From contig JAPLCU010000020.1 of NCBI GenBank assembly GCA_026392045.1, positions 1-64,000 on the forward strand: 64,000 bases of DNA, written 5' to 3'. This DNA comes from Armatimonadota bacterium (GTDB taxonomy: Bacteria; Armatimonadota; UBA5829). Under the pieces are notes generated by a model, which worked only from the letters and a program-made list of their open reading frames with translations, did no database searches and was not told the DNA's origin. The first letter of the stretch is position 1. Every line of letters starts with the position of its first letter. Shown here piece after piece: positions 6,874 to 58,128 of this stretch. Both the position numbers and the translations under genes were made by a program.

Positions 6874-8541
6874 TCAAAACAGCCCGTAGATCTCGCCGTC
6901 GGGGTTCATTCCTATTTTGGCGGCGGCTGGGACTTTTGGCAGGCCTGGCATGGTCATTATATTGCCTGCGTAAATTACCACAAAACCCGCGCCCGCGCTG
7001 ACCTTGGCCTCGCGGACGGTTATCTTGAAGCCGCTGGGCTTGCCGATGATTTTTGGATCATCGGAAAGCGAGTTTTGGGTTTTGGCGATACAGACCGGCA
7101 GGTTGCCAAAGCCCAGGGATTCTATCTTCTTGATCTGAGTAAGAGCGGCGGGCAGGAAATCTGCGCCATCTGCGCCGTAGAACTGCCTCGCGACCTCTTC
7201 CACTTTTTCTTTGATAGGCAGATCGACCGAATAGGCCGGGTGGAATTGTGATTCGTGCTCGCATGCCGCAAGAACGAGTTCGGCGAGATCAAGACCGCCT
7301 TCGCCGCCCGCCGCCCAAACATCTGAAAGCGCCCATGGCACTTCCATTTTTTCGCAGCAATCTGAGAGCGCCTGGATTTCCTCATCGGTATCCGCGGGGA
7401 ACTTGTTGATGGCTACGATCGGCACCAGACCGACGTTGCGCACGTTCTCGCAGTGCTTTTCGAGGTTCGCGATGCCCTTGACGACCGCTTCGGGGTTGTT
7501 CAGGGCAAGATCGGCGAGTGCAACGCCGCCGTGCATCTTCAGCGCTCTTATAGTGGCGACAACAACCGCTGCCGCAGGCTTCAGGCCAGCCGCGCGGCAT
7601 TTGATATTAAAGAACTTTTCCGCGCCGAGATCGCTGCCGAAACCGGCTTCGGTGACTACATAATCGGCTAGTTTCATGGCCATTTTGGTAGCAATAATAG
7701 AGTTGCAGCCGTGGGCGATATTGCCGAACGGGCCGCCATGGACAAATGCGGGTGTGCCCTCGAGGGTCTGCACCAGATTCGGAATAATCGCGTCTTTGAG
7801 GACGACTGCCATTGCACCGCTCGCGCTAAGGTCCTTCGCAGTCACCGGCTGGCCGGATTTATTGAGGCCGACTACTATGTTTGCCAGCCTGCGCTCAAGG
7901 TCTGCGCGGTCATTCGATAGGCAAAGGAGCGCCATGATCTCAGATGCGGTAGTGATATCGAAACCGGATTCGCGAGGAATGCCGTTTGTTTTGCCGCCTA
8001 GACCGATCACGATGTCTCGAAGCGCGCGCTCATTCATATCCATGACCCGCTTCCAGGTGATGGAGTGAACGTCAATATTGAGCTCATTGCCCTGGTGGAT
8101 GTGGTTGTCCAGCATGGCAGAAAGCAGGTTGTGCGCGGTGGTGATGGCGTGGAAATCGCCGGTGAAGTGCAGGTTAATATCCGCCATCGGAATCACCTGA
8201 GCGTAACCGCCGCCCGCCGCCCCACCCTTGATGCCAAAGCAAGGCCCAAGAGACGGCTCGCGAATGGCGATACACGTGGATTTGCCAAGCTTGCGGATGG
8301 CGTCGCCCAAACCAACGCCCGTCGTGGTCTTGCCCTCGCCCGCCGGGGTCGGGGTAATAGCCGTCACAATAATCAACTTGCCCTCGGGGCGGTCTGTCTT
8401 ATGGTTCAAGACATCCAGCGAAACCTTCGCCTTGTCTTTGCCATAAAACACGAGATCGTCTTCAGTAAGACCAATCTCTGCTGCAATGTCTCTAATATGT
8501 TTTGGCTGCGCTTGCTGCGCAATTTCTACGTCTGTTAACAC
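6874..8541 (-). CDS. fhs: Formate--tetrahydrofolate ligase
   Basis: [42 protein letters not shown]; preferred start is GTG at 8541 ([11 protein letters not shown]) preceded by AGAAGGAG; the longer ORF to 8601 reads into a palindromic repeat. Confidence 0.93.
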
Positions 8542-8587
8542 TAATTTTCTCCTTCTGATTTGGAAGTTAGCCATATTATTTATGATG

Positions 8588-8656
8588 TGCGGCTTCGGCA
8601 TCAGGATACCGAAGCAACTAATTGTGCGGCTTCGGCATCAGGATACCGAAGCAACT
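8588..8656. repeat. Family A palindromic element, two tandem copies (8588-8619, 8625-8656)
   Basis: TGCGGCTTCGGCATCAGGATACCGAAGCAACT twice, identical; stem GCTTCGG/CCGAAGC; a third identical copy at 17277-17308. Confidence 0.9.
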
Positions 8657-8692: not shown

Positions 8693-9136
8693 TTATCTCA
8701 TTGGCGGTGGGTCCTTTTTGATTAGTTCGACTTCCTTGAGCTCCTTGCCGAGGTCCATCGGTAAAATTCGCCCCGCGAACATGTTCAGCCATGCGCTGGT
8801 GCGCTCCAGGCGGCGGTCTACTGGTATATGATACTTCCGCAGCTTACCCTGCCTGCCCATCTTCTTTGAGCGCTCATTAATTAGCCACCATATACAGCGG
8901 CGGTCCGGGTAGACCTCGCAGAAACCCTTTTCGCGAGTGCCGCCGCAGGGGCCATTTCTGATCTGCTTAGGGCAGCGCATCGGGCACGTGAAAGCGTCGT
9001 GGCTGAGCACACATTGGCCGCAATCCTGGCACCCGAAGACAGGCTTTTTCACTATGTTTTCGGCAACAACCGCTGATTTGTTCAGTAATGCGTACTTTTC
9101 GCAGAAAGATGCGATAGCTTCTGATAGTTTGCTCAT
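8693..9136 (-). CDS. metV: Methylenetetrahydrofolate reductase C-terminal/zinc-binding partner (MetV-like)
   Basis: GCQDCGQCVLSHDAFTCPMRCPKQIRNGPCGG Cys cluster; ATGA overlap with metF. Confidence 0.82.
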   Translation of the reverse strand: MSKLSEAIASFCEKYALLNKSAVVAENIVKKPVFGCQDCGQCVLSHDAFTCPMRCPKQIRNGPCGGTREKGFCEVYPDRRCIWWLINERSKKMGRQGKLRKYHIPVDRRLERTSAWLNMFAGRILPMDLGKELKEVELIKKDPPPMR

Positions 9137-16019: not shown

Positions 16020-18737
16020 CTATTTCTGATAAGGCCCTGCGATAACAAGCGTTGCCGCGTCCGGGTGGAGGTATTTCTTAGCCGCCGCATTGACCTGGCC
16101 CAGGGTTATTGCGCCGTAAATCTTGGGATAGTTGGATATGTAGTCCATGCCGAGGCCGTAAAACTCGGCGTTCAGGAGGGTGCGGGCGACTCCTTCGTTG
16201 GTTTCGAGCGCTATCGGGAAAACGCCGATCAGGAACTCTCTTGCCTGCTCGTATTGTTTTTTTGTGGCGCCCCTGGCGGCGAAGTCTTTCACTATGCTCT
16301 TGAGTGAGGCCACGGCTTTGTCCACATTCTTTCCGCTGGTCCCGAGTGAAGCATACCAGGGCCCCGCGCCCAGGGTCGCGTCAAAGGTGGAGTAGATATC
16401 ATAAACCAGCCCCTGCTGCTCGCGGATTTGGTCTCCGAGAATGCTGCCGAGCGCGCCGCCGCCGCCTAAAATATGGTTCATCAATCTTACGGTATAGTAA
16501 TCTGGGCTTGATCGCTTTATTCCCAAAGCATAACCGTATAAAATATCCACCTGGCTCTTATCCATCATCGGAATCACGATTTGCTTGGGTTCCGTCTGCG
16601 GCATTACATCAGGAATCTCGACCTTGGGCGTCGGCCCATCGGCTTTCCAGTCGCCAAACCATCCTTTAACGCCTTCCACAGCATCCACTGCCTTCACATC
16701 CCCCGCAATCACAATAATCGCTGTGTCCGGGCGGTAGTATGCCTTGTGGAACACCGTAAGGTCATCGCGAGTGATTGATTCAAGGTGTTTGCGAGCTTCA
16801 TCAACCGTCAGTCGGTGATAAGGGTGGCTGGCGGGAAAAACACTGTTGTAGAACGCTCGGCTGGCCTGATCATCGGTGGATTCCTTACTCTGTTCCAGCG
16901 CCGATAGCATCTCGCCCCTGGCCCGCTCAAACTGATCCTGCGGGAAGGTGGGGTTTCTAAGCTCGTCAGAAAGCAAATCCAGCATCAGCGGGAAGTCTTT
17001 TGCGAGCGATTTCGCGCTGAAGCTCATGTTTTCGGCGCTTGCAGAAGTATCCACGCTCGCTCCAACAAACTCAGAAGCCCGCGCAAGTTCTAACGCTGAG
17101 CGCTTAGCAGCGCCTCGCCCCAGCATCTCAGCTGTCAGCGATGCCTCACCCTTCTTGCCATCATGATCGAAATATGACCCTGCCTTGATGTAACCCGAAA
17201 TCGCGACCGTGGGATTGGAATGATTCTCCTGCACAATAATAACCATGCCGTTGTCCAAAGCGACTCGCGTCGGTTTTGCGGCTTCGGCATCAGGATACCG
17301 AAGCAACTGGACAGCGGATTTTGGCTTGTAATTGTCTGCGAGTTTTTCCCAAGATTTATCGCTCGTCCGCTTAACCGCCCCTGGCATAGACTTGCCGCTG
17401 CCAGACGGCTCGCCATCTGTGGGAATAAACTTGCCAACTGTCAGGTTTTCCTGCGTAAAGTATTTATTCGCGACACGCTTCACATCTTCTGGGGTGACGG
17501 CTTTGATCTTCGGAATTAGTGTATTCAGATATTTATAGGATGTTATTGTGTTGTAATAACCAAGCTGCTCGCCCTGATCTGAAACGCTGTCATTTTGGAA
17601 GATAAGGCTCGCTTCGAGCTGATTTTTCGCCGATTGCATCTCTTGATCGGTGGGCAGAGTGGTTTTAATAATCTCAATTTGCTCCAAAAGCGCTTCTTTG
17701 AGCTTGTCTGCACTGACACCCTGCCTGGCATTTGCGGCAAACATATATAGCGATGGGTCTTTGCTGTCGCCGGTCGAAGAGTAGGCGGATGTGGCGAGCT
17801 GCTTTTCCACCAAAGCCTGATAAAGCTTGCCAGAGCGGCCTCCGCTCAGAATCTGATTTAGAACATTGAGCGCATAATCATCCGAGGAACCAATGGCCGG
17901 GACGTGATATCCCATAAGAATCCGCTCGGCGTTGCCCTGCTTGCGCACGATAACCGTCCGCTCTCCACTTTGCGGAGGCTCAACGGTATAAACAACCGGC
18001 GGCTTTGGCCCCGCAGGCTTGCTGCCAAAATACTTCTTCACCAAGACAATGGCAGCCTTTGGATCGAAATCGCCAACCAAAATAAGCGTGGCATTGTTTG
18101 GGTGATAGTATGTCTTGTAATACTCATGAAGCTTAGCCGCGCTTACGTTTTCAACATCAGATTGCCAACCGATTGTCGGCCAATGATAGGGGTGCGCCTC
18201 AAAAGCAGCCGCCATTAGAGCGTAGTAAAGAAGCCTGCCGGGGTTGTTTTCGTTGCCCTGAAGCTCAGAAAGAACGACCGTGCGCTCGTTTTGAAATTCT
18301 TTATCCGTAAGCAGTGCATTTCCGACACGCTCGGCCAGGGTTTTGAGCGAAAACTCCAAATTGCCGCTGCCCAGAAGCTGCCAATAGTATGTGAAATCCG
18401 TCGATGTAGCCGCATTTTCGATACCGCCGCGCTTGCGGATCATGTCGCTGATTTCGCCCTTTTTGAAGTTCTTGCTGGAGTTGAAAAGCATATGCTCAAG
18501 CATATGTGAGAGGCCGGTAATGCCTGTATGCTCGTTTCTGGACCCAGCCTTAAACCAGACCTGCGCCGTAAACACAGGCGCGGCATGCACTTCTTTCATA
18601 ATTACCGTGAGCCCGTTATCGAGCTTAGTCTCAAGGACGCCTTGCGCCTGCGCCAAAACACAGGATATCGCCAGTATTTGGATGAAAACAAGCGCAAGAA
18701 ATAATCGTCCAGCGCTTCGCAATGGTCTTACAAACAT
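16020..18737 (-). CDS. Two-domain M16 (insulinase/pitrilysin) peptidase
   Basis: HMLEHMLF (HxxEH); second M16 half follows; contains an in-frame family A element encoding [10 protein letters not shown]. Confidence 0.9.
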   Translation of the reverse strand: MFVRPLRSAGRLFLALVFIQILAISCVLAQAQGVLETKLDNGLTVIMKEVHAAPVFTAQVWFKAGSRNEHTGITGLSHMLEHMLFNSSKNFKKGEISDMIRKRGGIENAATSTDFTYYWQLLGSGNLEFSLKTLAERVGNALLTDKEFQNERTVVLSELQGNENNPGRLLYYALMAAAFEAHPYHWPTIGWQSDVENVSAAKLHEYYKTYYHPNNATLILVGDFDPKAAIVLVKKYFGSKPAGPKPPVVYTVEPPQSGERTVIVRKQGNAERILMGYHVPAIGSSDDYALNVLNQILSGGRSGKLYQALVEKQLATSAYSSTGDSKDPSLYMFAANARQGVSADKLKEALLEQIEIIKTTLPTDQEMQSAKNQLEASLIFQNDSVSDQGEQLGYYNTITSYKYLNTLIPKIKAVTPEDVKRVANKYFTQENLTVGKFIPTDGEPSGSGKSMPGAVKRTSDKSWEKLADNYKPKSAVQLLRYPDAEAAKPTRVALDNGMVIIVQENHSNPTVAISGYIKAGSYFDHDGKKGEASLTAEMLGRGAAKRSALELARASEFVGASVDTSASAENMSFSAKSLAKDFPLMLDLLSDELRNPTFPQDQFERARGEMLSALEQSKESTDDQASRAFYNSVFPASHPYHRLTVDEARKHLESITRDDLTVFHKAYYRPDTAIIVIAGDVKAVDAVEGVKGWFGDWKADGPTPKVEIPDVMPQTEPKQIVIPMMDKSQVDILYGYALGIKRSSPDYYTVRLMNHILGGGGALGSILGDQIREQQGLVYDIYSTFDATLGAGPWYASLGTSGKNVDKAVASLKSIVKDFAARGATKKQYEQAREFLIGVFPIALETNEGVARTLLNAEFYGLGMDYISNYPKIYGAITLGQVNAAAKKYLHPDAATLVIAGPYQK
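17277..17308. repeat. Family A palindrome inside the M16 peptidase CDS
   Basis: 32 nt identical to the copies at 8588 and 8625. Confidence 0.92.
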
Positions 18738-33434: not shown

Positions 33435-33504
33435 GGGAGGGCGAGGCTCCCGCCAAGCCTTGTAGCTGCGAGGAAAAACGGCTCAGGGGGACCTTCGCCC
33501 TCCC
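33435..33504 (-). repeat. 70-bp element with 10-bp terminal inverted repeats (family F)
   Basis: Termini GGGAGGGCGA/TCGCCCTCCC; homologous to 45861-45923 and 44035-44071. Confidence 0.85.
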
Positions 33505-42220: not shown

Positions 42221-42288
42221 CGGGCGGATCAGAGATTCCACCCGAACATGGGTTGATAAGCGGGCTGGATCAGAGATTCCGCCCGAAC
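42221..42288. repeat. Two family B palindromes (42221-42247, 42261-42288)
   Basis: CGGGCGGATCAGAGATTCCACCCGAAC and CGGGCTGGATCAGAGATTCCGCCCGAAC. Confidence 0.85.
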
Positions 42289-42354
42289 ATGACCGTACAT
42301 AGAGAAAGAGAGGCAGCTAGAGCATACCTCTCAAAATCTGCTATAATGCGCTAT

Positions 42355-44034: not shown

Positions 44035-44071
44035 TCGCAAAGAAAAAGCTCGGCGGGAGCCTCGCCCTCCC
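44035..44071 (+). repeat. Truncated family F element
   Basis: AGCTCGGCGGGAGCCTCGCCCTCCC right terminus. Confidence 0.7.
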
Positions 44072-45870: not shown

Positions 45871-45923
45871 AGGTCCCCTGAGCCATTTCCCTTCGCAGCT
45901 ACAAGGCTCGGCGGGAGCCTCGC
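45861..45923 (+). repeat. Family F element overlapping the 3' end of pfp
   Basis: GGGAGGGTAAAGGTCCCCTGAGCC...TTCGCAGCTACAAGGCTCGGCGGGAGCCTCGC. Confidence 0.82.
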
Positions 45924-58023: not shown

Positions 58024-58128
58024 GCTTCGGGACGAAAAACAGTCCCGAAGCATATTGAGCGCGTTACACGGGCGGATCAGAGATTCCGCCCGAACAAAAA
58101 GCTTCGGGACAAAAAGATGTCCCGAAGC
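58024..58128. repeat. Family C palindrome - family B palindrome - family C palindrome
   Basis: GCTTCGGGAC...GTCCCGAAGC (58024-58051, 58101-58128) flanking CGGGCGGATCAGAGATTCCGCCCGAAC (58069-58095). Confidence 0.92.

Follow-up and report, generated by a model that had tools for sequence, protein, structure and literature searches.

A dispersed hairpin repeat, probably spread by its own RAYT transposase, with in-frame copies in genes of an Armatimonadota bacterium

The window, the whole stretch of 64,000 nucleotides analysed here, contained on its minus strand a gene for a two-module M16 peptidase of 905 aa (16020..18737), with Peptidase_M16 and Peptidase_M16_C found in two stretches each. The linker between the modules (17277..17411, minus strand, residues about 443-487) ends with a copy of a palindromic repeat, named REP-A here, at 17277..17308 (minus strand; core 17281-17304), which is read in frame as 11 residues, about 477-487. 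Two further copies, a direct pair 37 bp apart at 8588..8619 and 8625..8656 (both minus strand), were located between fhs, the gene for formate-tetrahydrofolate ligase (6874..8544, minus strand), and a metV-like gene (8693..9136, minus strand; Pfam DUF5981, methylene-tetrahydrofolate reductase C terminal). The strand given for these copies is the one that carries a GTT tag and a 10-bp stem. The fhs gene probably starts near 8541-8544 after AGAAGGAG, so the pair lies in its upstream region; a longer fhs ORF reaching 8601 begins within a repeat copy, and its start is probably not genuine. The first-pass annotation had placed an in-frame element with an 11-residue peptide between the two M16 halves and two more elements between metV and fhs, and we found all three as it described.

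The 32-mer TGCGGCTTCGGCATCAGGATACCGAAGCAACT matched without mismatch at 8588-8619, 8625-8656 and 17277-17308, as had been claimed, and in none of 100 dinucleotide shuffles; chance alone would yield no such matches. A genome-wide search, which had been proposed as a check, revealed 89 matches with at most three mismatches against 0 for the backwards control; their variation is almost confined to the first three bases. The only three exact matches are those in the window. The 24-nt core GCTTCGGCATCAGGATACCGAAGC gave 191 matches with at most three mismatches (reversed control 0), with a few self-similar copies, whose loop is symmetrical, entering this number once for each strand; 171 matches differed from a family consensus by one mismatch at most. 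The genome of this uncultured bacterium (3.55 Mb in 206 contigs, 98% complete) contains about 180-190 copies of a near-identical hairpin unit of 24 to 28 nt, and the core matches are dispersed over dozens of contigs. In the 150 copies whose flanks are complete, the block GCTTCGGCATCAGGATACCGAAGC-AA hardly varies, the C that follows it is kept in 132, and the base before it is G in 125. This near-invariance agrees with recent spread, one of the options that had been offered for the three identical sites. Exact 27-mers were found elsewhere among GTDB species genomes only in bin.10 JAJFTD01, no exact element match was found in viral contigs, and the family was present in five of the 28 genomes of the class.

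Genomic contexts were sampled from stretches of the genome that hold 152 copies, which occur as singletons and as direct tandem arrays. All 69 sampled pairs of neighbours no more than 250 bp apart were direct, so the inverted REP pair that serves as mobile unit in REPINs and BIMEs was not observed among them. The flanks outside the conserved block are shared within an array and differ among loci, indicating that arrays grew by tandem duplication of the core with its local flank.

Five Y1_Tnp genes were found in the genome, and one of them, RAYT-A on contig C107 (4204-4395), sits between inverted element copies whose 49-nt arms are 90% identical and lie 515 bp apart; a TnpA-REP-like transposase, which the first-pass annotation had advised looking for, therefore exists at the element itself. 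The catalytic residues H59, H61 and Y115 are invariant in 14 relatives, and the NCBIfam model REP_Tyr_transpos scored 74.4 bits, slightly below its cut-off of 80. The best sequence match in the PDB was TnpA-REP (4er8). The AlphaFold model of RAYT-A (pLDDT 92) also had 4er8 as its best fold match (E 8.9e-11, TM 0.81), and this complex of TnpA-REP with its REP hairpin outranked the IS200/IS605 transposases. Genome G018, of the same order and a different family, contained an orthologous RAYT with 63% identity (contig C324) between inverted copies 577 bp apart, and its REP is a covarying version of the element, with compensatory base changes in both of two hairpins. Genome G011 had 16-19 diverged copies, and its fetched Y1_Tnp loci included only a distant match (28%) to RAYT-A. 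These genomes, very few in number, fit a pattern in which a population of copies lasts as long as its RAYT is present and decays in its absence.

Folding the minus-strand sequence GCTTCGGTAT-CCTG-ATGCCGAAGC as DNA gave a stem of 10 bp that includes one T.G pair (-8.2 kcal/mol, z -6.5), and the plus strand gave a 7-bp stem, in line with the palindrome first noticed. The minus-strand reading is GTT-GCTTCGGTAT-CCTG-ATGCCGAAGC, in which 5'-GTT adjoins the hairpin. A second hairpin with a 7-bp stem and a 3-nt loop stands directly beside the first in about eleven copies of this genome, including one end of the C107 RAYT locus; at the other end it has a single wobble or mispair, and nearly all G018 copies possess it. 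We infer that the two-hairpin unit is ancestral and that most copies here are a shortened derivative with one hairpin. An upstream second hairpin that is an abundant free palindrome serving as target was considered and rejected: the window has 48 six-bp hairpins, compared with 22-36 in shuffles, and none is of the second-hairpin type.

Both helices covary. In 29 units in the same register (units with no second hairpin or a differently placed one were left out), 99.2% of cells were paired and seven pairs showed double changes; the covariation score was 0.255, whereas shuffling gave 0.066 and sliding no more than 0.028. The T.G occupies the same stem pair in all 29 aligned copies. The strong fold and compensatory changes would also suit copies that work chiefly as attenuators or stabilisers of mRNA (those upstream of fhs, for instance), with spread being secondary, and 60 of 86 classifiable intergenic copies in the sample lie between co-directional genes. 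However, a hairpin bound by RAYT as single-stranded DNA would give the same covariation, and the copies occur in genes in both orientations and in many contexts, so we regard a mainly regulatory role as unlikely. GTAG was ruled out as the conserved tag: it adjoins only 44 of 150 copies of this genome, on the other strand, and neither G018 nor the REPtron copies have it; 5'-GTT is conserved in its place. In the canonical GTAG superfamily the hairpin has a conserved GT[AG]G tetranucleotide at its 5' foot, which is not the case here; the repeat is therefore filed outside that superfamily, as a REP whose tag is a variant.

REPs and REPtrons are recognized by a dispersed, high-copy, mostly intergenic palindrome and a RAYT (HUH, single Tyr) flanked by inverted copies of it, and all of these were found. 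We conclude, with a probability of about 0.85, that the repeat belongs to a RAYT/REPtron system as its REP element, and that it probably spread through its own RAYT, with the copies in genes surviving in linkers. RAYT-A would bind the GTT-tagged strand, folded as a single strand, and may nick it, so that a short ssDNA unit moves in the way proposed for TnpA-REP. Selection would have removed most insertions into genes but spared the ones that lie in permissive linkers and whose net length is a multiple of three; these would be translated as filler peptides of about ten residues. Arrays would have expanded later through local tandem duplication of the unit with neighbouring bases.

REPs flanking RAYT genes, double palindromes at some of these genes and intragenic REPs, which for the GTAG type were most numerous in Opitutus terrae and were located in linkers, were reported in 2013 (PMC3733652). 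Recognition of the tag and hairpin (PMC8266576) and atypical REPs of some RAYT classes (PMC6006769) have also been described. Similar to GTAG-type REPtrons, the system has a short, imperfect, high-copy palindrome with the RAYT between inverted copies, several families per genome with a RAYT of their own, a minority of copies in frame within genes, and, as in some of those REPtrons, double-palindrome ends. It differs from them in the 5'-GTT, instead of GTAG, that is conserved beside the hairpin at the REPtron and across species, and in neighbours that are always direct rather than paired as REPINs or BIMEs. The E. coli TnpA-REP/REP complex (4er8) shares the HUH-Y1 fold and a hairpin with a conserved non-Watson-Crick stem position, but identity is only about 23%, the stem, loop and tag differ, and most REPs of E. 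coli are intergenic and organized in BIMEs. The Y1_Tnp domain, hairpin ends and proposed single-strand chemistry are shared with IS200/IS605 elements; the transposase and the repeats are here mostly apart, with no accessory gene and a far shorter unit. Because intragenic REPs associated with RAYTs had already been reported from a few bacteria, the kind of element is known and the surprise is limited. New features are the lineage itself, GTT as the tag, arrays that are exclusively direct and coding sites that are well resolved.

Among the 152 sampled copies, 99 were intergenic, 50 were distributed over 28 ORFs with a minimum length of 100 codons, and three overlapped an ORF edge. ORFs make up 87% of the sampled DNA by a simple caller that overstates coding, and coding sequence is strongly avoided, as only 50 of the 152 copies lie in it. 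At least 17 of the REP-bearing ORFs contained a Pfam domain: M16, GH2 LacZ, GH51, LamG, exosortase/DUF3485, CheA, CheB, methyltransferase, 4Fe-4S membrane protein, GT4, O-antigen ligase, MoCF/MOSC, HGD-D, PMT, TPR-CHAT, GlmU-like and the large chain of CPSase (CarB), the last being a reading that ends at the contig edge and, past the element, enters the beginning of the second half. The copies are mostly at linkers or termini, with GH51 (in the CBM domain), HGD-D and TPR-CHAT as exceptions, and lie in both orientations. In G018 a GHMP kinase has one copy between its two domains, and coding copies thus occur beyond this genome.

All five stop-free frames of the element are used and the sixth, which has a TGA, is not. 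Spacing between neighbouring copies was divisible by three in nine of nine pairs in Pfam-confirmed genes versus 16 of 46 intergenic pairs (Fisher p 0.0003; the nine spacings are non-independent and represent about five distinct units, for which p is about 0.004). The earlier suggestion that in-frame copies leave the genes open was confirmed in many unrelated genes with Pfam domains. At one locus (L150, G000:C147, 2642-5308) a single ORF of 888 aa spans, by way of five in-frame tandem copies, two glycosyltransferase genes that relatives have as separate genes. Since the assembly has 206 contigs and several copies are at contig ends, a few contexts could be assembly errors.

The likeness to Rickettsia palindromic elements that the first-pass annotation had drawn is apt as an analogy, because translated in-frame copies occur in many unrelated genes, with the peptides in linkers. 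Membership is unsupported. A family of that type, without transposase and with coding sequence as its main niche, would not account for a cognate RAYT gene bounded by the element or for copies that are mostly intergenic, and we consider it very improbable. RPE-4 and RPE-6 belong to CGTC-type repeats, for which no flanking transposase is reported, whereas here the RAYT is bounded by the element.

In the M16 peptidase, residues 443-485 of the linker have a pLDDT below 50 and are predicted to be disordered. The linker is hypervariable among homologues, with 66 residues here versus 74-97 in the closest homologues over the compared stretch. An alignment had been proposed to reveal an insertion at this site; no net insertion is demonstrable in a linker that is hypervariable and shorter here, and the copy may have replaced linker sequence. 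The encoded peptide was carried by none of the aligned homologues, and we expect no dedicated function for it. All homologues do have a linker at this site, as they would if a ten-residue peptide were ancestral to the M16 family and the repeat coincidental; but with the peptide in no homologue and identical DNA present about 190 times, this is refuted, with practically no probability left to it. The first-pass annotation had named homologues with the peptide and no further copies in the genome as the outcome that would speak against a mobile element; the opposite was found on both counts.

Other coding sites were better resolved. LacZ has ten residues (30 nt) more than its homologues, placed exactly between their SPW and F.LLNG; ten homologues lack the two tandem copies of the GlmU-like protein, and the exosortase has nine extra residues compared with its nearest relative. 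In TPR-CHAT (L103, G000:C18, around 2560) the element encodes nine residues and the length equals that of nine homologues, and GH51 with the element differs by one residue from its paralogues. Occupancy was in frame at all of these coding sites, M16 included, and pure insertion was demonstrated for some. The equal length of TPR-CHAT and nearly equal length of GH51 are not predicted by simple insertion. LacZ, with AACCAG on both sides of the core, was the sole case of a target duplication, and 41 singletons showed no excess of target-site duplications over shuffled flanks.

These observations raise the possibility that copying proceeds with replacement, in which template switching by the polymerase or gene conversion overwrites part of the target with the hairpin and nicking by RAYT at most supplies ends. 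The nine TPR-CHAT homologues of equal length at the nine element-encoded residues, the single-residue difference of GH51, the M16 linker with fewer rather than more residues than in close relatives, and the singletons without target duplications point in this direction. The clean additions in LacZ and the GlmU-like protein do not, and as the homologues are about 35-65% identical, insertion followed by a compensating deletion could give the same lengths; we hold replacement as the general route to be doubtful. The narrower idea that the family can overwrite coding sequence, not only insert, for which TPR-CHAT offers nine codons replaced in register and which would suit M16 and GH51 as well, is likewise tentative and rather unlikely. 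If it were true, copying would occur by a replicative template switch, protein length would stay the same, and essential and structured genes would be open to a selfish hairpin.

For the question of how RAYTs spread REPs, this lineage offers a single RAYT, a very homogeneous set of about 190 copies and a sister RAYT with a covarying hairpin. Homologues of the REP-bearing proteins reveal the site before the element, so that inserted length, target and effect on the protein are testable; metabolic genes such as carB and the GlmU-like gene carry in-frame selfish DNA.

Other repeats and transposase genes were also found. The remaining Y1_Tnp genes were considered and rejected: that on C179 belongs to a second REP family, B, that on C24 is accompanied by unrelated inverted repeats, and no element copies were found at those of C96 and C65. 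Family B (GCTTCGGGACGAAAAACAGTCCCGAAGC) is present in the window at 58024-58051 and 58101-58128, with 57 matches genome-wide, and its copies flank the C179 RAYT (518-748) as 37-nt inverted repeats with 97% identity. The C24 gene (L031, G000:C24, 1420-2153), a more distant Y1_Tnp gene, lies between inverted repeats of AAGGGGACGGAGCCCTTTT, of which more copies occur nearby. A third hairpin family (CGGGCGGATCAGAGATTCCGCCCGAACA), with no RAYT linked, was located in the window at 42221-42248, 42262-42289 and 58069-58096 and had 66 matches genome-wide. A longer dispersed repeat (GCGAGGCTCCCGCC...CTTGTAGCTGCGA) occurs in the window in three copies, at 33441-33489, 44035-44071 and 45875-45923, in both orientations.
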